From NCBI GenBank assembly GCA_937941095.1, contig CALDYJ010000013.1:1-64000 (forward strand): 64,000 nucleotides of DNA. The letters are read 5' to 3'. The first letter of the stretch is position 1. Every line of letters starts with the position of its first letter. The position numbers and the translations under genes are program-made. The stretch comes from an uncultured Saprospiraceae bacterium. Its GTDB lineage: Bacteria > Bacteroidota > Bacteroidia > Chitinophagales > Saprospiraceae. A model generated the notes under the pieces. It saw nothing but the letters and a program-made list of their open reading frames with translations. It did no database searches and had not been told where the DNA came from. This document shows, in pieces, positions 47,015 to 60,796 of the stretch.

Positions 47015-48292
47015 ATGAGCGCAAAATCATCCATATTCAACAACCTCCAATTGCTGATGGGTTTTGATCAGGATGAAGAATTAGCCTATCAAAAGGATCA
47101 GTTCAATAAGTCAAAAACAGTACTGCGGGGAGCAATTTTATTTTCTATTTTGTTGTTTGGTGCTTTTGCTTGGTTGGATGTATACATCGCAGAAACAGAG
47201 TATAAGTCTATGTGGGTCTTTAGACTGATCTACTGTTTTTATGCCTTTATAATCTTTGCTTACTCCTATACTGTTTTTTTTGAATCTTTACATCAGTTGG
47301 TAATGGGCTCATTGGTGCTTGTAGCATGCATTTGTATATTAGGCATCATGATTATTCCTATGGAATCTGTCAATAGTAATGTCTATTATACATCCTTAAT
47401 TCTTTTAGTTTTTTTCAATTTTACTTTGACAAACATGAGGTTTAGCTATGCTTCCATTATTGCTGTCATCATTATTATCTTATATTTATTTACATGCATA
47501 TATTTTTTGGAGGTTTTAAAAGATGGCTGGCTTTCCACAAATGGTACATTGTTTACAAATAACACTTTTTTTCTTTTAATGTCAGCAGTCTTAGGTGCTG
47601 TTGTAAATGGCATCATAGAAACATATAAAAGAAATGATTTTGTTGGCCAAGTAGCTTTAAAAAAGGAACAATTAAAATCAAATCAACTACTTCTAAACAT
47701 TCTGCCCAATAAAATTGCAGACCAATTAAAAAACAGTACAGAGACAATTGCTGATGAATACAATGCTGTATCTGTATTATTTGCCGATTTGGTGGGCTTC
47801 ACAAATTTAGCAAGTAGGAAAAAGCCAAAAGATTTGGTGGATATGTTAGATCATATCTTTTCAAAGTTTGATTTTTTAGCAGATAAATATGGTTTAGAAA
47901 AAATAAAAACAATCGGAGATGCTTATATGGTTGCAGGAGGATTGTTGGGAAAAAATGCCAGCCATGCTATTGCAATGGGTGATATGGCTTTGTCGATGAT
48001 GAAAGAACTTGAAAAATACAATAGAAGATTTGATGAAAATTTAAATTTAAGAATTGGTATTCACATTGGCCCAGTAGTCGCTGGTGTAATAGGGTCGAGG
48101 AAATTTTCCTATGATTTGTGGGGCGACTCAGTCAATGTGGCAAGCAGAATGGAATCTTCTGGAGAAGTTGGAAAAATTCAAGTTTCTAGTGAAATGTATC
48201 AAGCCTTAAAAAGCAATTTCAACCTAAGTGCAAGAGGAGCTATTAAAGTAAAAGGAAAAGGTGAATTGTATACTTACTTTTTAAATGGATAA
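47015..48292 (+). CDS. Membrane-bound class III adenylate cyclase
   Basis: A 425-residue inner-membrane enzyme that makes cAMP. About six hydrophobic segments lie in residues 37-202, followed by a short linker and a class III cyclase domain (about 250-425). All key residues are present: metal Asp258 (LFADLVGFT) and Asp302 (IGDAYM), adenine-selecting Lys298 (KIKTIGD) and Asp367 (YDLWGD), plus transition-state Asn374 and Arg378 (NVASRME). Lys298 and Asp367 point to ATP as substrate. The membrane part may sense a signal. It follows the macroglobulin gene by 70 bp, and its stop is 1 bp from the convergent regulator gene. Confidence 0.92.
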   Translation: MSAKSSIFNNLQLLMGFDQDEELAYQKDQFNKSKTVLRGAILFSILLFGAFAWLDVYIAETEYKSMWVFRLIYCFYAFIIFAYSYTVFFESLHQLVMGSLVLVACICILGIMIIPMESVNSNVYYTSLILLVFFNFTLTNMRFSYASIIAVIIIILYLFTCIYFLEVLKDGWLSTNGTLFTNNTFFLLMSAVLGAVVNGIIETYKRNDFVGQVALKKEQLKSNQLLLNILPNKIADQLKNSTETIADEYNAVSVLFADLVGFTNLASRKKPKDLVDMLDHIFSKFDFLADKYGLEKIKTIGDAYMVAGGLLGKNASHAIAMGDMALSMMKELEKYNRRFDENLNLRIGIHIGPVVAGVIGSRKFSYDLWGDSVNVASRMESSGEVGKIQVSSEMYQALKSNFNLSARGAIKVKGKGELYTYFLNG

Positions 48293-48293
48293 A

Positions 48294-48941
48294 TTAACTC
48301 TCCTCTAATAAACCAAATTCAAAAGCAGCCCTTACTAAACCTGCTGTGTTTTTAGCATTTAGCTTTCTAAGTAGACTCTTCCTGTGAGAGATAACAGTGG
48401 TGTTACCTATAAAAAGTAGCTTAGCGATTTCATCGGTAGTGTTTTCTTCTACAATGAGTTTTAGAATTTCTTTTTCCCTTCTGGTTAATTTTTGAATAAA
48501 GTCAGAAGATTTTGGTTTTCTGCTTTTATGCATACCAGCAATTAAACTATCTGTTACTTCTTTACTAAAGTATTTTTCTCCGGCCATTACCTTTTCAATG
48601 GCTTCAATAATTTCGTCCTTACTTGTGTTCTTCAATAAATAACCATCTACACCAGTTTTGGACATCTTGGTTATGTAACCTGCTTCTTTGTGCATGGTCA
48701 AGGCTATGATCTTTAAATCTGGTTTAGTTTTTTTTATAATTTCACAAATTTCAAATCCACTTTTGTCAGGTAGGTTTATGTCTAAAAGGATAACTTCTAT
48801 GTCTTCGTTTTCTGCATTGCGAATGGCAGTCTCTCCATTTAATGCTTCTGCACAGATGTTGACATAAGGATGTTGCTCAAATAGAGCTTTCATTCCATCG
48901 ATCAAAACTTGATGATCATCTACTATCATAACTTTTACCAT
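48294..48941 (-). CDS. LuxR/NarL-type response regulator
   Basis: A 215-residue DNA-binding response regulator. The receiver domain (1-120) has the acidic pair VDDHQ (residues 8-9), the phosphorylation site Asp54 in ILLDINLP, and the switch and Lys near ALTMHKEAGY and YLLKNTS. The C-terminal GerE helix-turn-helix (about 150-205) reads TRREKEILKLI, DEIAKLLFIGNTTVISH and LLRKLNAKN. It overlaps the kinase gene by 7 bp and should be its cognate partner. Its likely targets include its own operon; the palindromes at 53238-53273 are candidates. Confidence 0.92.
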   Translation of the reverse strand: MVKVMIVDDHQVLIDGMKALFEQHPYVNICAEALNGETAIRNAENEDIEVILLDINLPDKSGFEICEIIKKTKPDLKIIALTMHKEAGYITKMSKTGVDGYLLKNTSKDEIIEAIEKVMAGEKYFSKEVTDSLIAGMHKSRKPKSSDFIQKLTRREKEILKLIVEENTTDEIAKLLFIGNTTVISHRKSLLRKLNAKNTAGLVRAAFEFGLLEES

Positions 48942-51238
48942 AAGTCTATTTTTTTATTTTCCACATGTGGAATTGTAATGTTAAAACTTGTTCCTCTTCC
49001 AATTTTTGAATCGATATTCATAGTTCCATGAAGATAAAGAACCCTAGATTTTATAGACCCTAATCCGATGCCAGAATTTGCTTTTATTTTAGTTGGATCA
49101 AAACCTTTACCATCATCTTCAATGGTTATTTCTATGTTGTTGTTTTCAATACTTATTTGAACAATGACTTCTTTTGCCTCGGCATGCTTAATTACATTTT
49201 TAAGTAATTCTTGGATTATTCGAAATAGATTAATTTCGAGAATGTCATCTATAATTTTGTCGAGGTTAAAAGGTATAAAAGAAACTTCGAGGCTGTTTGA
49301 TTCTTCTATGGCATCACATAAATCTTTTAGCGATACTTCCAGACCATATTTGCTTAATGAGCCTGGCATCATATTGTGTGAGATCTCTCGAATGGATATA
49401 CTTGCTTCTTCAATAAGCTCTTCTGCTTTTTGGTAACTCTCTAAGGTTTTTATTTCAGGCGCTTTATTTTGCAAGGCGCTTATTCTCAGTTTAATGGTTG
49501 CAATGATTGCACCTAAACCATCATGTAAATCTCTAGCTATTCTTTTTCTTTCTTGTTCTTCTCCGCTTACCATTGCCCTCAAAATTTCAGTTTCCTTTTC
49601 TTTCTCGATTACTGACATTTTTTGTTTTGCAAATTGCTTATTTCTTTGATAGGTGATTACCGTCAGAAAAGTCATGATGAGTAAAACCAAAAGACCAGCT
49701 ATTAGTTGAACTATTTGAGTATTTCTTGTTTTTAATGCACCAAGTTGCTCTTCTATTTCTGATTCTTGTTGAGCAATTTTTCTATTCATTTTTTCAGTTT
49801 CATACCTTTTCTCTAATTCTCTAACAATCTTTGCATTTTCTTGATTGACTATGCTGTCTCGCATCAAATTAAAAGTTCGGTAATCTTTTAATGCTTGTTT
49901 GTAGTTACCTGTCTGTTCATGATAGAAAGCATAATGTCTGTATACTTCTTGAAGTGCATTGGCATCATTTACTTCATTGGCAATTTTTTGAGCATCCGTA
50001 ATTAATCTTATTGCTTCAGGAAGATTTTTATCCATTTTAAAAAGGACTTCACATAGTGCTAATTTGGTATTTAATTCTCCAAGTCGATCACCAGTTGCCA
50101 TTCTAAGTTTCAAGGCTTCCCTCAATGTGCTTTCAGCTTTTGATAAATTATCATTGCTTCCAAAAAGATTTGCGATCCTCAATTGAATATCAGCCATGTC
50201 TTGTTTCAAACCTAATTGCTGATAAATTTGAAAAGCATTTTGATAATTTAAGAGTGCTTGATCTGCTTGTTCCAAATATTCAAATATGGTAGCCCTCAAT
50301 TGAAGGCTCCTTCCTTCGTTAAGTAAGGCTCCTTTTTCTTTTGCTAGACTTCTGGCTTTTTGTGTATAATCTAAAGCTGGCTCTAAGAGCCTCTGATCCA
50401 GATACACGTTAGCGATGTCGATGTAAGTGCTTAATAGTGTGAGGGTGTCTTTAAGTTTTTCAGAATACCTAATCGCTTCAATGAAAGATTTTTGTGCTTC
50501 TTCATAGTTCCCTAATTCTTGATGTAATCCTCCTAAGGTGCTGTAATCACTTAAGATTCCAGCATGGTCGGCATTTAATTCTTTCGTATCTATCAGTTTG
50601 TTAAAGTAAAAAATGGCTGAATCTGTTTTTCCATTAGCTTGATAATTTGTGGCTATTTGATTGTAAAGTTGAACTTGTAAAGTTGTATCTTTTTTTGAAT
50701 CTGCAAAGCTAGCCGCTTCTTTGATAAGACTCATCGCCTTCATATGTTCACCTTTGCTGCTGTGTAATAAGCTTCTAATGTCCAAGACTTCCATTAATAA
50801 TCCGCTTTGTTCTAACAGCGTTTTATTGGTCAATAATTCATCCAAGAGTTTAATGGCTGAGGGGCGATCGTCTTCGGAAACGAAGCTATTAGCTATCGCA
50901 AATTTTGTTGTAATGATTCCAAGTTCATTTTGCTCATTTTGGAATATCTTTTTCGCGTCATTAAAGTTAATACGTGCAGTTTCGAAATCTTCATTATACA
51001 AACTTACTTGACCTTCTAAGACATAAAATTCAGCAACACATTTTTGAGGTATTCTTTTTTGACCATTCTTTATTTTTTCTAAATACTTTTTTAATTCATC
51101 AATGCTTTCTTCTTCAAACATTTCTTTTGCAATAGATATCTGCTTTGCACAGGATGTTTTTGCAATTTGTTCTTCTTGAGCCAGACTACATAAAGGAGCT
51201 ATAAAAAGTAAGGTAAAAAAAAGCAGTTCTTTCCACAT
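48935..51238 (-). CDS. TPR-sensor histidine kinase (HisKA_3)
   Basis: A 767-residue sensor kinase. A signal sequence ending SLAQ exports an N-terminal sensor of about 11 TPR-like helical pairs (about 25-470; for example TLGGLHQELGNYEEAQKSF). A coiled helix and one membrane segment (about 512-533) follow. The cytoplasmic HisKA_3 dimer domain has His572 in ARDLHDGLG. The HATPase_c domain has N-box LLKNVIKHAEA, G1 DDGKGFD and G2 GIGLGSIKSRV. The layout matches the NarX/DegS class. Its gene overlaps the regulator by 7 bp and lies 12 bp after the barrel gene. Confidence 0.93.
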   Translation of the reverse strand: MWKELLFFTLLFIAPLCSLAQEEQIAKTSCAKQISIAKEMFEEESIDELKKYLEKIKNGQKRIPQKCVAEFYVLEGQVSLYNEDFETARINFNDAKKIFQNEQNELGIITTKFAIANSFVSEDDRPSAIKLLDELLTNKTLLEQSGLLMEVLDIRSLLHSSKGEHMKAMSLIKEAASFADSKKDTTLQVQLYNQIATNYQANGKTDSAIFYFNKLIDTKELNADHAGILSDYSTLGGLHQELGNYEEAQKSFIEAIRYSEKLKDTLTLLSTYIDIANVYLDQRLLEPALDYTQKARSLAKEKGALLNEGRSLQLRATIFEYLEQADQALLNYQNAFQIYQQLGLKQDMADIQLRIANLFGSNDNLSKAESTLREALKLRMATGDRLGELNTKLALCEVLFKMDKNLPEAIRLITDAQKIANEVNDANALQEVYRHYAFYHEQTGNYKQALKDYRTFNLMRDSIVNQENAKIVRELEKRYETEKMNRKIAQQESEIEEQLGALKTRNTQIVQLIAGLLVLLIMTFLTVITYQRNKQFAKQKMSVIEKEKETEILRAMVSGEEQERKRIARDLHDGLGAIIATIKLRISALQNKAPEIKTLESYQKAEELIEEASISIREISHNMMPGSLSKYGLEVSLKDLCDAIEESNSLEVSFIPFNLDKIIDDILEINLFRIIQELLKNVIKHAEAKEVIVQISIENNNIEITIEDDGKGFDPTKIKANSGIGLGSIKSRVLYLHGTMNIDSKIGRGTSFNITIPHVENKKIDLW

Positions 51239-51250
51239 TCATAAGTTACT

Positions 51251-52441
51251 TTAGAAGTGCGCTGTCAAAGTAGTCCTAAAAGTATTTTGTTCCCAAGCCG
51301 CTTTGTCTTTGACTGACTGCGTCATAAAATTAGTTCTTAATAAGAGGAATTCATTAACCTTATATCCTATTCCAATGTTTTGCCTTAAGACATTTTTACC
51401 CCAAATTTGTGTATCGCCATTAATTGTTGTTTCGGAGAAAAAATGGAGCACATCTAAACCATATGCCAAATACAAACCAGAAACAGCCGGAAGTTCATAT
51501 TTTATATTTAAATAGCCTGAAAATAAATTAAAATTATCTTCTGATGGGGTCGACTGCCCATCAAAAACAGATGTTTGTGTTGGTGCTAAATAAGAGCCAT
51601 ACATCAATTCGAGAACAAATTCCCAATGTCCAAAACCTAAAACTGCATCAGTCCCAAGTATAAAATTTGAAACAGTGACGTCTTCTGAACTCACCTCAGT
51701 AACTTCTTTAGAAGCTTGACTAAATGTTCCATAATTGATTGAAAATGCTTGTTCCCAAAAGTACTTAGGTTGAAATTTAAGCCTTGCAATAAAACCGAGG
51801 TCTGAGAAGTCTGTTAAGTCAGATAATAGACTTGCAGATCCATTGGTAATAGCTGCTGAGAGCTTTATTTTTTCATCATTAAATTGCCAGTTTGTAAGAA
51901 TTCCATTTGAATAACCACCATAATAAAGTAAAGTAGTGCCCCAATCTTCTTTACCATCTAAGACGATGTGATCCATATCAAAATTGAGGAATCCGGTTTT
52001 AGCAGAAATTTTATTATAGTAAGAATGTGCCAAAGGGAGGTTTATAAATGTCCTCTTTTTAGAATGCTGCTGAGTATTGAAATATCCAAATGGAGTAATG
52101 AACCTCCCTAGTGAAATCGCAAAGGATTTACCTTCTGGACTGTACTGTAAGTTTAGCAAAGGCCAGTGCAATGTGTTTAATTTTTTACCCTTATATCTTA
52201 CTTGCGAAAGACGGGCATTTAGTTTAAACGATTCTTTAAAAGTAACCTTTGTTAAAAAGTTAGCATTGTGAATACCTAACCTTAAAGTTTTAAAATCTTT
52301 ATGAATCTCATTATAATAATAATGAGAATTTGTTTGGCCTATGGATTGTTCAATATCAATCCAAGCATTCAGTTCTACCTCAAGCTGAGCTTCAGTAAAA
52401 AAGGATAAACTGCAAAAAAATAAAATACTTAATATTCTCAT
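51251..52441 (-). CDS. Outer-membrane porin-like protein
   Basis: A 396-residue exported beta-barrel. The signal peptide ends FFTEAQ (about residue 18). Many amphipathic strands with aromatic girdle residues follow (GRFITPFGYF, LAHSYYNKISAKTGF, WGTTLLYYGGYSNG), and the chain ends in Phe (TTLTAHF), as barrels usually do. It resembles phosphate-selective or carbohydrate porin-like proteins in layout, but no family signature is certain. It lies 10 bp after the cupredoxin gene and 12 bp before the kinase gene. It may pass a ligand to the periplasmic parts, which is inference. Confidence 0.8.
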   Translation of the reverse strand: MRILSILFFCSLSFFTEAQLEVELNAWIDIEQSIGQTNSHYYYNEIHKDFKTLRLGIHNANFLTKVTFKESFKLNARLSQVRYKGKKLNTLHWPLLNLQYSPEGKSFAISLGRFITPFGYFNTQQHSKKRTFINLPLAHSYYNKISAKTGFLNFDMDHIVLDGKEDWGTTLLYYGGYSNGILTNWQFNDEKIKLSAAITNGSASLLSDLTDFSDLGFIARLKFQPKYFWEQAFSINYGTFSQASKEVTEVSSEDVTVSNFILGTDAVLGFGHWEFVLELMYGSYLAPTQTSVFDGQSTPSEDNFNLFSGYLNIKYELPAVSGLYLAYGLDVLHFFSETTINGDTQIWGKNVLRQNIGIGYKVNEFLLLRTNFMTQSVKDKAAWEQNTFRTTLTAHF

Positions 52442-52451
52442 GGAAGGTTAG

Positions 52452-53126
52452 TTAAACTTTTGGCTTTAGAGAGATATTCTTTTCTATTGCGACTCCTTTC
52501 GTCAAATCTATTGTTTCTTTATATTTTTGAATACTAGGATGGTAAATTTGAATTTCATAAACTCCATTTGGTAAGTCTTTCATATTATAATTCCCTTCAG
52601 CATCAGCTTTGGTGAAGTACGGTGTATCCAAGCTAATAATCACAGCGCCCATTTCAGGATGGATGTCACATCCAAGTTTAATAATGCCACTTTTATTAAT
52701 TTTTTGACCATAAACATTTCCGGTAGGCCTTCTCCCAATATTGAATCTTGCCTTAGGTGACAAACTATAAACATTGTGGTAATGTTCGTCTTCATTCACA
52801 AAATAGACGGTAGAGCCTTTAGTAATTGCCACAACGTTAGGGTAAAATGTTTTCGCTCTTTGGGTCATCTGTACATTTTCACTTGCTTGAAGTACTGGCT
52901 TAAAGCTTTGAGGATGAAAACTTATGTAAATGTTATTTTCAGTGCGATTATCTTCATCTATCCGTAATTTTTCGCTTGATTTGATGTCATCAGATTGGTA
53001 TGCAGTACCTTTTTTTATAAAGCCTAATTTACTTTTTGGCAAACTAATTTTTCCTGATATAACATTTTGAGAAAAGGCAGTGAATGACAAGACACTACAC
53101 AATAAGACTAAGCACTTACTTTTCAT
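52452..53126 (-). CDS. Periplasmic cupredoxin-like protein with a Cna-like tail
   Basis: A 224-residue exported protein with a signal peptide (1-20, ending TAFSQ). A cupredoxin fold (about 90-165) carries the likely type 1 copper ligands His117 (EHYHNVYS), Cys153, His156 and Met159 (LGCDIHPEMG). After it a small beta-sandwich tail (KADAEGNYNMKDLPNGVYEI, about 172-215) resembles carboxypeptidase-regulatory or Cna-type domains. It opens the operon with the barrel, kinase and regulator genes. It may carry electrons or sense copper for the kinase. Similar cupredoxins are labelled methylamine utilisation proteins in other phyla. Confidence 0.85.
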   Translation of the reverse strand: MKSKCLVLLCSVLSFTAFSQNVISGKISLPKSKLGFIKKGTAYQSDDIKSSEKLRIDEDNRTENNIYISFHPQSFKPVLQASENVQMTQRAKTFYPNVVAITKGSTVYFVNEDEHYHNVYSLSPKARFNIGRRPTGNVYGQKINKSGIIKLGCDIHPEMGAVIISLDTPYFTKADAEGNYNMKDLPNGVYEIQIYHPSIQKYKETIDLTKGVAIEKNISLKPKV

Positions 53127-53237: not shown

Positions 53238-53273
53238 CTATGAATTCATGGATTTAATTCTATGAATTCATAG
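53238..53273. promoter_or_regulatory. Paired 14-bp palindromes, candidate operator
   Basis: Two sites lie in the 309-bp divergent interval between the cupredoxin operon and the DUF697 gene: CTATGAATTCATGG (53238-53251) and CTATGAATTCATAG (53260-53273). The second is a perfect palindrome and the first differs at one base. Centres are 22 bp apart, close to two helical turns, so two dimers could bind one DNA face. The rest of the interval (53127-53435) is AT-rich; it also holds a 6-bp inverted repeat at 53381-53398 and no gene. Confidence 0.6.
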
Positions 53274-57421: not shown

Positions 57422-60400
57422 TTGCTTAAAGGATATAGCATAAAAACTAAATATATTAAACACCTAAACTGCATCTTGCAGTTTCTTGTTTTTATCAGCC
57501 TATCTTTTTGTTTCCTAAATAGCAACGCTCAAAGCCTTTACCCCATTAAAAAAGATGCTCAATGGGGATTGATCAATGGAGATGGCCAAATTGTCTTAGA
57601 TCCAGTTTATGATGCTATTGGAGAATTTAAAAAGTATGGCTATTCCGTCATGCAAAGAGATGGAGGAGTTGGTCTCTTAAATAAGGAAGCAAAAGAAATA
57701 ATCAAACCTAAATACGAAGATCTCAAAGTTCTTGATTCCTTATTAATTGCCGTAATGGATGATTCAGAATGGATGGTCATTAATTTGAAAGAAGAAGTAG
57801 TACTTGATAAAGGCTATGATCGTGTCTTCATTTGGGAAGGAAAATACTTGGCATATCAAAAACTTGATAAATGGGGTATTGCTACCATCAGTGGTAAGAA
57901 AATTTGTCCTCCACAATATGACTTTATAAAATTATTAGAAAGCGGACATTTTGAAACTAAGCTTGAAAATCAATTTGGTTTGCTTAGTGCAGAAGGAACA
58001 ACTATAATTGAACCTATCAACGAAGAAATTAAAGTATTAGACACAGATCTGTTTTTCTTTAAAAAAGAAAGAAAATGGGGAGCAGTAAAAGGCAATGGCG
58101 AACAAGTAATAGAACCTAATTTTGATTCCTTCCAAATCATAAGTGATAACTTTATCAAATTGTTAAATCATGGAAATAAGTATTTGTTTTCAAAAGTGAT
58201 TAACAAAATCATTTCTAGAGACGAATACAATAATTTCTATTCCTTTAGTGAAGATAAAGTTTTGGTGAAAAGATTGAGAAGGTTAGGGCTAATGGATGCC
58301 ACAGGAAAACTTTTATTGATTCCAGAATTCCATGAAATTCATACTTATGATCAAGATCTTTATAGAGTAAACAAAGGTGGCAAATGGGGAATTGTGAAAA
58401 ACGAAAATGAGGTTTTATTAGATTTTGAATATGAATTTATTGCACCTAGAATAGATAATGTGGCCATTGTTAGAAAAGACAAAAAATTTGGGTTAGTCAA
58501 TATGCTAGGCGAAGAAGTCATTGCACCTAGTTATGGTAAAATTGAAATTGATGATGCACAAATCAAAGCACATAAAAACAGCGAACTCAAAATATTTACA
58601 GTTGATGACCAAGGCCGTTTAAAAGAAGAAAACGAGTTTAAAAAGCACATGACTATTAAGATTGGTAGTCGTGAGCAAAGAAACTTTGTAAGGCGTCAAG
58701 CCTCTTGGGCTGAAGATGATTATCGCTTAGAAAATTTTGAATGGTTTTACGAGCCTGGTGCAGATAAATGGGGACTAAGATCTTTAGAAGACATGGAGGT
58801 TGTCATAGAGCCTACCTATGATTGGATTAAAATTGAAAGGGATTATGGATTTACCATTGTAGGGATAGAAAATATGCAATACTTACGATTAGATCGAACA
58901 GAATTTAGAGTAGAAATGGTCTATGGTTTGGTGAATAATGATGTAGGTAAACTGACCACCTTTGTGAACATCTGGGACATCAGGTTTGATGATTTTGAAC
59001 AAGGTAATCCTGTGGCAAGAATCATTTTTGACAGTGGAAGACATGGTTTAATTACACGTAAAGGCAAGATTATAAAAAAAGACTTTTCTTATGTAGGAAC
59101 ATTTAATAACGGCATCGCCAAATATTCCCCGAAAGGAAATTTGTCTGCTGCTACAAAAGTCAAAAAAAGAAAATTGGACAATGTTAATGAGTATTGGACT
59201 AATCTCATGGCTCCAAATTTAATGACGAGTTATACAACGTTTGATAAAGACCTTTATAGTACTGGTAATCTTGTTTGCAATGATTGCCACTGGGGATACA
59301 TTGATACACTAGGACAAATTATTGCTCCAGCAACTTATGATTTTGCAAGAGATTATGTAAACGAAGTTGGTATTGTGGAATGCAATCAAAAGTGGGGAGT
59401 ACTCGACATTGAGGGAAATACCTTGCTAGATTGTGATTACGATGGCATCAACTTCTTAGAAAACACATCCAATGAAATACTCCAGATTTTTATTAACCGC
59501 CAAAAATACGGTTTGATTGATACCTTAGGTCAAGTAACTGTCAGCCTTATGTATGATGAGATCGGAGCTTTTACAAACAATAGACTTGCTGTCAAAAAAA
59601 ATAATAAATGGGGCTTTGTAAATAAGAATGGGTTTGAAATTATTCCATGCATTTACGATAAAGTTAGAAATTTTAGCGAAGGTTTTGCTACTGTTAAATT
59701 GAAATCTAAATGGGGTTTAATTAATAAAAATGGAAACGTTATTTTCGATTTTAAATATTCGCAGTTAGGGAATATGAATTCTGGATTGATTTGGTTTGGA
59801 GATTCATTAGGCAAAGGATATAAAAACAAGGAGGAAGCCTTAGTAATTCAATCGGATTATCAATCGGCAAGCGACTTTGATGGACAAGTAGCAAGGGTGA
59901 AATCAAAAGGGGAGTACGGCTTGATAGATAGGTATGGAAAATTTGTGTGTAAGCCTAAATTTATAAAAATAGAACCTTTCAACTCACATGGTTTAGCAAA
60001 GGTAAAATATGGTTCAGATAACTTAAAATATGGTTACATCAACAAAGAAGGTAACCTAATCAATTCTTCACCATTCAAACAATTAGGAGATTACAAAGAA
60101 GGTTTAGTCTCTGTCAAATTGAAGGATCAATTTGGTTTCATGGATGCAAGTGGTAGATTATTAATTCAGCCAGCGTATTCGAAAGTTTCTAGTTTTTCAG
60201 AAGGAATGGCTATGGTCCAACAAAAAGGAAAGTGTGGATATATAAATGCTCAGGGAGTTCAGACTATTGATTGTGCCTTCAGTAAATGTTTAGACTTTAA
60301 AGACAACCGAGCGGTCGTATACAAAGGATATAAGAAAGCAGGCTTGATTGATAAAGAAGGCAATTTCATCATTAAGCCTGGCATTAATAAAATGCTTTCT

Positions 60401-60796
60401 TTTGAACAAGGGAGAGGCTTGATTAGAGAAAATGAGTATAAGTTTTATTACATCACTGATCAAGCAAAACTTTATCAAGGCTATTACCAAAAAGCTTCAA
60501 GTTTTAAATATGGAGTTGCTGTAGTCCAAATAAATGGTAAGTGGGGCGTCATAAATCAAAAAGGTATTCAAATCATTCCTCCAAAATATGACAAAATCGA
60601 ATCCTTTAAAGATGGATACGCAAAAGTACTCATCAATGAATTTTCTGGATTGACCAACCTTAAAGGTGAACTTATTGTAGACCCTGATTATGAATACATT
60701 TCTTATGCTGGTGAAGGATTGTTTAGAGTAGAAAAAGGAGATAAAATAGGTTACTTCGACAAAGAAGGGAAATGGGTCTGGGGGCTTCAAAAATAA
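57422..60796 (+). CDS. Large WG-repeat secreted protein
   Basis: An 1124-residue exported protein made almost entirely of about 25 WG repeats. Each has about 20-45 residues and the pattern [K/Q]-[W/Y/F]-G-x-[I/V/L]-[N/D]-x-x-G, for example KWGFVNKNGFEIIP and QFGFMDASGRLLIQP. WG repeats probably form strands that bind proteins or glycans. The signal peptide ends NSNAQ (about residue 37). No ATG is available: an in-frame stop at 57383-57385 closes the frame upstream, and TTG 57422 is the first plausible start. No enzyme domain or type IX sorting domain is present. It overlaps the convergent pabC gene by 10 bp. Confidence 0.85.
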   Translation: MLKGYSIKTKYIKHLNCILQFLVFISLSFCFLNSNAQSLYPIKKDAQWGLINGDGQIVLDPVYDAIGEFKKYGYSVMQRDGGVGLLNKEAKEIIKPKYEDLKVLDSLLIAVMDDSEWMVINLKEEVVLDKGYDRVFIWEGKYLAYQKLDKWGIATISGKKICPPQYDFIKLLESGHFETKLENQFGLLSAEGTTIIEPINEEIKVLDTDLFFFKKERKWGAVKGNGEQVIEPNFDSFQIISDNFIKLLNHGNKYLFSKVINKIISRDEYNNFYSFSEDKVLVKRLRRLGLMDATGKLLLIPEFHEIHTYDQDLYRVNKGGKWGIVKNENEVLLDFEYEFIAPRIDNVAIVRKDKKFGLVNMLGEEVIAPSYGKIEIDDAQIKAHKNSELKIFTVDDQGRLKEENEFKKHMTIKIGSREQRNFVRRQASWAEDDYRLENFEWFYEPGADKWGLRSLEDMEVVIEPTYDWIKIERDYGFTIVGIENMQYLRLDRTEFRVEMVYGLVNNDVGKLTTFVNIWDIRFDDFEQGNPVARIIFDSGRHGLITRKGKIIKKDFSYVGTFNNGIAKYSPKGNLSAATKVKKRKLDNVNEYWTNLMAPNLMTSYTTFDKDLYSTGNLVCNDCHWGYIDTLGQIIAPATYDFARDYVNEVGIVECNQKWGVLDIEGNTLLDCDYDGINFLENTSNEILQIFINRQKYGLIDTLGQVTVSLMYDEIGAFTNNRLAVKKNNKWGFVNKNGFEIIPCIYDKVRNFSEGFATVKLKSKWGLINKNGNVIFDFKYSQLGNMNSGLIWFGDSLGKGYKNKEEALVIQSDYQSASDFDGQVARVKSKGEYGLIDRYGKFVCKPKFIKIEPFNSHGLAKVKYGSDNLKYGYINKEGNLINSSPFKQLGDYKEGLVSVKLKDQFGFMDASGRLLIQPAYSKVSSFSEGMAMVQQKGKCGYINAQGVQTIDCAFSKCLDFKDNRAVVYKGYKKAGLIDKEGNFIIKPGINKMLSFEQGRGLIRENEYKFYYITDQAKLYQGYYQKASSFKYGVAVVQINGKWGVINQKGIQIIPPKYDKIESFKDGYAKVLINEFSGLTNLKGELIVDPDYEYISYAGEGLFRVEKGDKIGYFDKEGKWVWGLQK

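Follow-up and report, generated by a model that had tools for sequence, protein, structure and literature searches.

What would an exported copper protein and an outer-membrane barrel be doing in one operon with a histidine kinase and its response regulator? Four minus-strand genes in this order lie in the 64,000-nucleotide stretch analysed here ("the window"), part of a 4.26-Mb draft genome of an uncultured Saprospiraceae bacterium. An earlier note, made from the sequence alone, had described them as a self-contained "envelope-sensing unit", with proposed entry by the barrel, binding by the cupredoxin and readout by the kinase TPRs. The component families are already known; the question is whether the set behaves as a unit, how far it extends beyond this genome, and what it might sense.

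The operon and its surroundings

Gene positions (Table 1) and spacing, taken from ORF calls, agree with those given in the earlier note: 10 bp separate the cupredoxin (CUP) and barrel (BAR) genes (52442-52451), 12 bp separate BAR from the histidine kinase (HK; 51239-51250), and the HK and response regulator (RR) ORFs share 7 bp (48935-48941). Its domain assignments for CUP, HK and RR are likewise upheld by Pfam, and for CUP by a PDB profile comparison as well.

Table 1. Operon genes and flanking features, in window coordinates
Feature	Position	Strand	Remarks
Cupredoxin (CUP)	52452..53126	minus	224 aa, ORF call
Barrel (BAR)	51251..52441	minus	396 aa, ORF call
TPR histidine kinase (HK)	48935..51238	minus	767 aa, ORF call
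Response regulator (RR)	48294..48941	minus	215 aa, ORF call
Membrane adenylate/guanylate cyclase	47015-48292	plus	converges on the operon, 1-bp gap between stop codons
Two 14-bp palindromes, CTATGAATTCATAG	53238..53273		upstream of the operon; one copy with 1 mismatch

CUP begins with a signal peptide, followed by a copper domain and, at the C-terminus, a carboxypeptidase-regulatory-like domain (CarboxypepD_reg in Pfam). The copper domain contains H117 and a C153-X2-H156-X2-M159 loop, the ligands read in the earlier note, and these are invariant in 27/27 Saprospiraceae members and in 37/37 of a wider set that includes Proteobacteria. The Cupredoxin_1/Copper-bind match of the window protein, scanned singly, falls below the Pfam cut-off; in the PDB, a profile built from 37 homologues hits Cu nitrite reductase, plastocyanin, amicyanin and pseudoazurin. 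The predicted structure, made with only two relatives added, was unusable (pLDDT 35). To judge from its sequence, CUP is an exported type 1 copper (cupredoxin) protein, which would be copper-loaded.

BAR has a signal peptide and a C-terminal Phe, and itself has no Pfam match, although Porin_O_P is weakly matched by 3 of 31 homologues. Its AF2 model, of low confidence (pTM 0.56), resembles 16-stranded porins (Foldseek TM about 0.4-0.6); taking these matches as support only, BAR is a putative porin-like outer-membrane beta-barrel. Comparison of homologues revealed neither a heme motif nor any invariant Cys or His.

HK is laid out as a signal peptide, a periplasmic TPR sensor (about residues 22-505), one transmembrane helix (about residues 509-530), HisKA_3 and HATPase_c, with Pfam matches to TPR_12, HisKA_3 and HATPase_c; its catalytic motifs (His572, N681 of the N box, and the G boxes) are conserved. 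RR is of NarL/LuxR type (Response_reg plus a GerE helix-turn-helix in Pfam), with D9, D54, T82 and K104 invariant among 20 homologues. Together they carry the features of a HisKA_3/NarL-LuxR two-component system (DHp His, N and G boxes, receiver Asp and Lys, GerE). The sensor of the cassette kinases lacks any conserved Cys or His, so that it probably reads a protein or an organic ligand rather than copper itself.

Upstream of the operon, the centres of the two palindrome copies are 22 bp apart. Two matches were found in the window where 0.05 would be expected, and the exact 14-mer has no other match in the host genome. They are a possible regulator site on sequence grounds, but a conserved one was rejected, neither copy being found in sister species or relatives. 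The convergent cyclase gene was considered as a fifth member and discarded, since it is not kept in relatives and differs in architecture; its position beside the operon is probably coincidental, although a sister module (below) uses a cyclase. Elsewhere in the window, a plus-strand gene (57422-60796) encodes a 1124-aa protein with many WG-like repeats, as judged by eye.

Conservation and exchange of outputs

The surroundings of each CUP homologue were retrieved from 298 Saprospiraceae genomes, which hold 26 full homologues besides the window copy. The order CUP-BAR-HK-RR is complete at 18 other loci in 12 genera and is thus not specific to one strain; five further loci are cut by contig ends and agree up to that point. 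At two Saprospiraceae loci (L044 and L052) a cyclase between CUP and BAR replaces the kinase and regulator, and at another (L053) BAR is absent. The four proteins diverge in parallel, as the earlier note would have them do: over 19 loci, with species background included, pairwise distances correlate at r 0.92 for CUP-HK, 0.917 for HK-RR and 0.72 for CUP-BAR, and 0 of 2000 permutations reached such values. The correlations demonstrate that the genes are inherited together but are no proof of contact, since the species background remains in the distances. The 20 cassette kinases group together in a single clade (SH-aLRT 100), separate from 26 further histidine kinases (almost all of them TPR kinases) of the window genome and seven relatives; the tree was a quick one, and several of its paralogue branches are long.

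In a sample of 395 genomes from the phylum, CUP relatives turn up commonly in classes other than the window's. BAR is matched 44 times in this sample outside the window, and in 43 of these cases CUP lies within 5 kb on the same strand; the lone exception is near a contig end and adjoins a cyclase. BAR is therefore a dedicated partner of CUP. The usual arrangement outside Saprospiraceae, seen at about 40 loci in other families, is CUP, a protein of ~570-600 aa, and BAR. In L044 and L052 the middle protein is dCache_3-HAMP-Guanylate_cyc by Pfam, and middle proteins elsewhere align with these; the cyclase catalytic residues (D399, K439, D443, D503, N512, R516) are present in 13/13. A cyclase, which the earlier note did not mention, is thus the usual output of the wider module in the phylum. 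At one locus (L190), CUP and BAR are followed instead by a dCache_3-HAMP-PAS-HisKA hybrid kinase.

How did the two-component form arise? On a tree of CUP and BAR, Saprospiraceae form one clade, the two cyclase loci included, and the two-component form requires a single change (shuffled mean 17.9), on a branch whose support is only 45. This is most simply explained if a cyclase-type module exchanged its output once for a TPR kinase and regulator. CUP and BAR thus act like a conserved input unit whose outputs can be exchanged; the four-gene operon is a derived two-component version of the module, restricted to Saprospiraceae, a point that the earlier note missed.

Several cyclase-type loci have a Ferritin_2 (ferritin-like) gene after the barrel (L101:8859-9473, plus strand; L109:4524-5102, minus; L164:4460-5029, minus; L097:5763-6368, minus), and in the two copies read the N-terminus of the product is lipoprotein- or Tat-like. 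L164 has two barrel copies with a ferritin-like gene between them. At two other loci a barrel-like protein that bears a CxxCH heme motif near its N-terminus is encoded directly upstream of a cupredoxin relative (L110:7655-8983, minus; L111:4133-5506, plus), a possible outer-membrane cytochrome/copper-protein pair; a relationship of BAR to these CxxCH proteins was not established (E 0.0055, probability 6.6).

Homologous cupredoxins, mostly annotated "methylamine utilization protein", are also found on plasmids of Caballeronia, Comamonas and Novosphingobium (tblastn E 1e-17 for CUP against Comamonas, aligning with the same four ligands). An EAL-domain gene follows within 1-10 bp, and genes for DUF3034 and group 1 truncated hemoglobin accompany most of these pairs. 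The three EAL proteins that were scanned have the architecture dCache_3-HAMP-GGDEF-EAL. In one Caballeronia copy, only a remnant of the cache domain is left. The earlier note had mentioned cupredoxin-barrel pairs beside signalling genes in Proteobacteria. This is borne out for the cupredoxin, but not for the barrel: the comparison of DUF3034 with BAR was not significant, and DUF3034 could not be accepted as a relative. In two cases (L090:6477-6917, plus; L092:5258-5821, minus) the truncated globins adjoining the cupredoxin and GGDEF-EAL genes have export signals apparent by eye; periplasmic globins are unusual.

The cupredoxin family also has non-signalling uses, since some relatives occur apart from any barrel or signalling gene (L112-L114, three copies looked at) and another, on S. 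meliloti pSymA, adjoins SCO and cbb3 oxidase genes. Genomes of the family to which L112-L114 belong (f18; 2-3 Mb) have up to four cupredoxin relatives each.

Sensor, target or conduit

"Envelope-sensing unit" is still the best reading of the four-gene operon, because the unit is conserved, its copper ligands invariant, its members parallel in divergence, and its relatives nearly always paired with a membrane receptor. On balance we think it probable that the operon is the two-component form of an envelope sensor of modular build, in which CUP and BAR are the input side. The conserved input would then be an outer-membrane BAR and a periplasmic type 1 copper protein. CUP, when copper-loaded, reduced, or bound to something entering through BAR, would dock on a membrane receptor at its periplasmic domain and so switch it; we infer both the contact and the direction of signalling. 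In Saprospiraceae the receptor would be the TPR histidine kinase, phosphorylating the LuxR-type regulator. Its counterpart would be a dCache_3-HAMP cyclase in the phylum's other classes (once a dCache_3 hybrid kinase) and, among Proteobacteria, a dCache_3-HAMP-GGDEF-EAL protein accompanied by a different putative barrel. Against this model, the TPR and dCache_3 folds are unrelated, and a single cupredoxin surface would need to suit different receptors; the cupredoxin relatives without a barrel or signalling gene, and the absence of BAR at L053, also count against it. As to the input, which may be copper, redox or a small molecule, our guess slightly favours a redox signal over copper level because relatives adjoin heme proteins, namely exported globins and CxxCH barrel-like proteins.

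Another possibility is that CUP and BAR are targets rather than sensors, the two-component system sensing alone and switching on their genes as effectors. Two-component systems are usually encoded beside the genes they control. The Pco copper-resistance set, in which PcoRS controls pco, is comparable (PMC7558416), and a tandem palindrome lies upstream of the operon, but is not conserved in sister species. Pco-like regulation would account for the window operon, yet it leaves the cyclase and GGDEF-EAL forms unexplained: a cyclase is the most frequent partner in the phylum, a GGDEF-EAL protein is the partner in Proteobacteria, and neither itself binds DNA. We consider this model unlikely, if well short of negligible. 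BAR and CUP might instead have a metabolic function, carrying electrons or copper through the envelope, with the signalling gene responding separately to the same condition. The CxxCH barrel-like proteins of L110 and L111, the exported truncated globins and the oxidase genes beside the S. meliloti relative are all in keeping with such a conduit. Yet BAR lacks a heme motif and invariant Cys or His, the operon contains no oxidase or reductase, and a signalling gene is missing only rarely, lying in the cyclase form even between CUP and BAR; a conduit seems to us unlikely, slightly more so than the target model. That the genes lie together by chance or in one strain only, and share no function, is hardly credible: these genomes are rich in TPR kinases, but the order is kept across 12 genera, the cassette kinases form a clade of their own, and the proteins diverge in parallel.

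If the modular sensor is the correct reading, it could be carried further. CUP and BAR may be a portable co-receptor coupled to three or more types of output (two-component, cyclic nucleotide and, where the barrel is another one, c-di-GMP), the redox state or loading of a blue copper protein being read as the signal; we offer this only tentatively. Type 1 copper proteins are known for carrying electrons and holding copper, and we know of none that acts as a sensory co-receptor. To our knowledge, envelope redox or copper sensing in Bacteroidota is also poorly described, and the operon is a defined candidate for it. A module that keeps CUP and BAR and changes its signalling enzyme would in addition be a clear natural experiment in how receptors gain outputs. 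A search of the open-access full-text literature, a limited test, yielded no description of the four-gene or the cyclase form. We place the operon with envelope sensing by way of a periplasmic accessory protein, a known kind of system, and there is a real chance that it is a new sort of co-receptor.

Comparison with known systems

The Pco/Cop copper-resistance system (pcoABCDRSE) has, like the operon, a periplasmic copper protein, an outer-membrane protein and a two-component system together in one set (PMC7558416). The operon differs in its HisKA_3 kinase with a TPR sensor and its NarL/LuxR-type regulator, and no Pfam match to the PcoA multicopper oxidase, PcoB/CopB or PcoC/CopC families was found among the four genes and two neighbours. 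CusRS-type systems also have a membrane sensor kinase that reads the periplasm, but CusS itself senses periplasmic Cu(I) (PMC7558416), whereas the HK sensor lacks conserved Cys or His and any copper would sit on the separate cupredoxin. Membership in the CusRS/PcoRS group, with its OmpR-family regulator and HisKA kinase, is rejected: the operon has a GerE regulator and HisKA_3.

In domain architecture HK and RR are like other Bacteroidota TPR-HisKA_3 kinases with LuxR-type regulators. The cassette kinases are set apart by length (734-793 aa, against 589-688 aa for nearly all paralogues), by their separate clade, and by being fixed to a cupredoxin and barrel. With amicyanin/plastocyanin-type blue copper proteins CUP shares a profile match spanning the copper domain, and its Cys-X2-His-X2-Met ligand loop resembles the amicyanin loop; CUP adds the C-terminal regulatory-like domain and the coupling to signalling genes.

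Among the systems compared, the Proteobacterial cupredoxin/DUF3034/globin/EAL sets have a cupredoxin homologous to CUP, with the same four ligands and a carboxypeptidase-regulatory-like domain, directly upstream of a membrane signalling receptor. There the receptor joins a dCache_3 sensor to a GGDEF-EAL output, an exported globin is added, and the DUF3034 protein is not detectably related to BAR, whereas the receptor in the window operon is a TPR kinase. It is the cyclase form of the phylum that shares dCache_3-HAMP with the Proteobacterial receptor.
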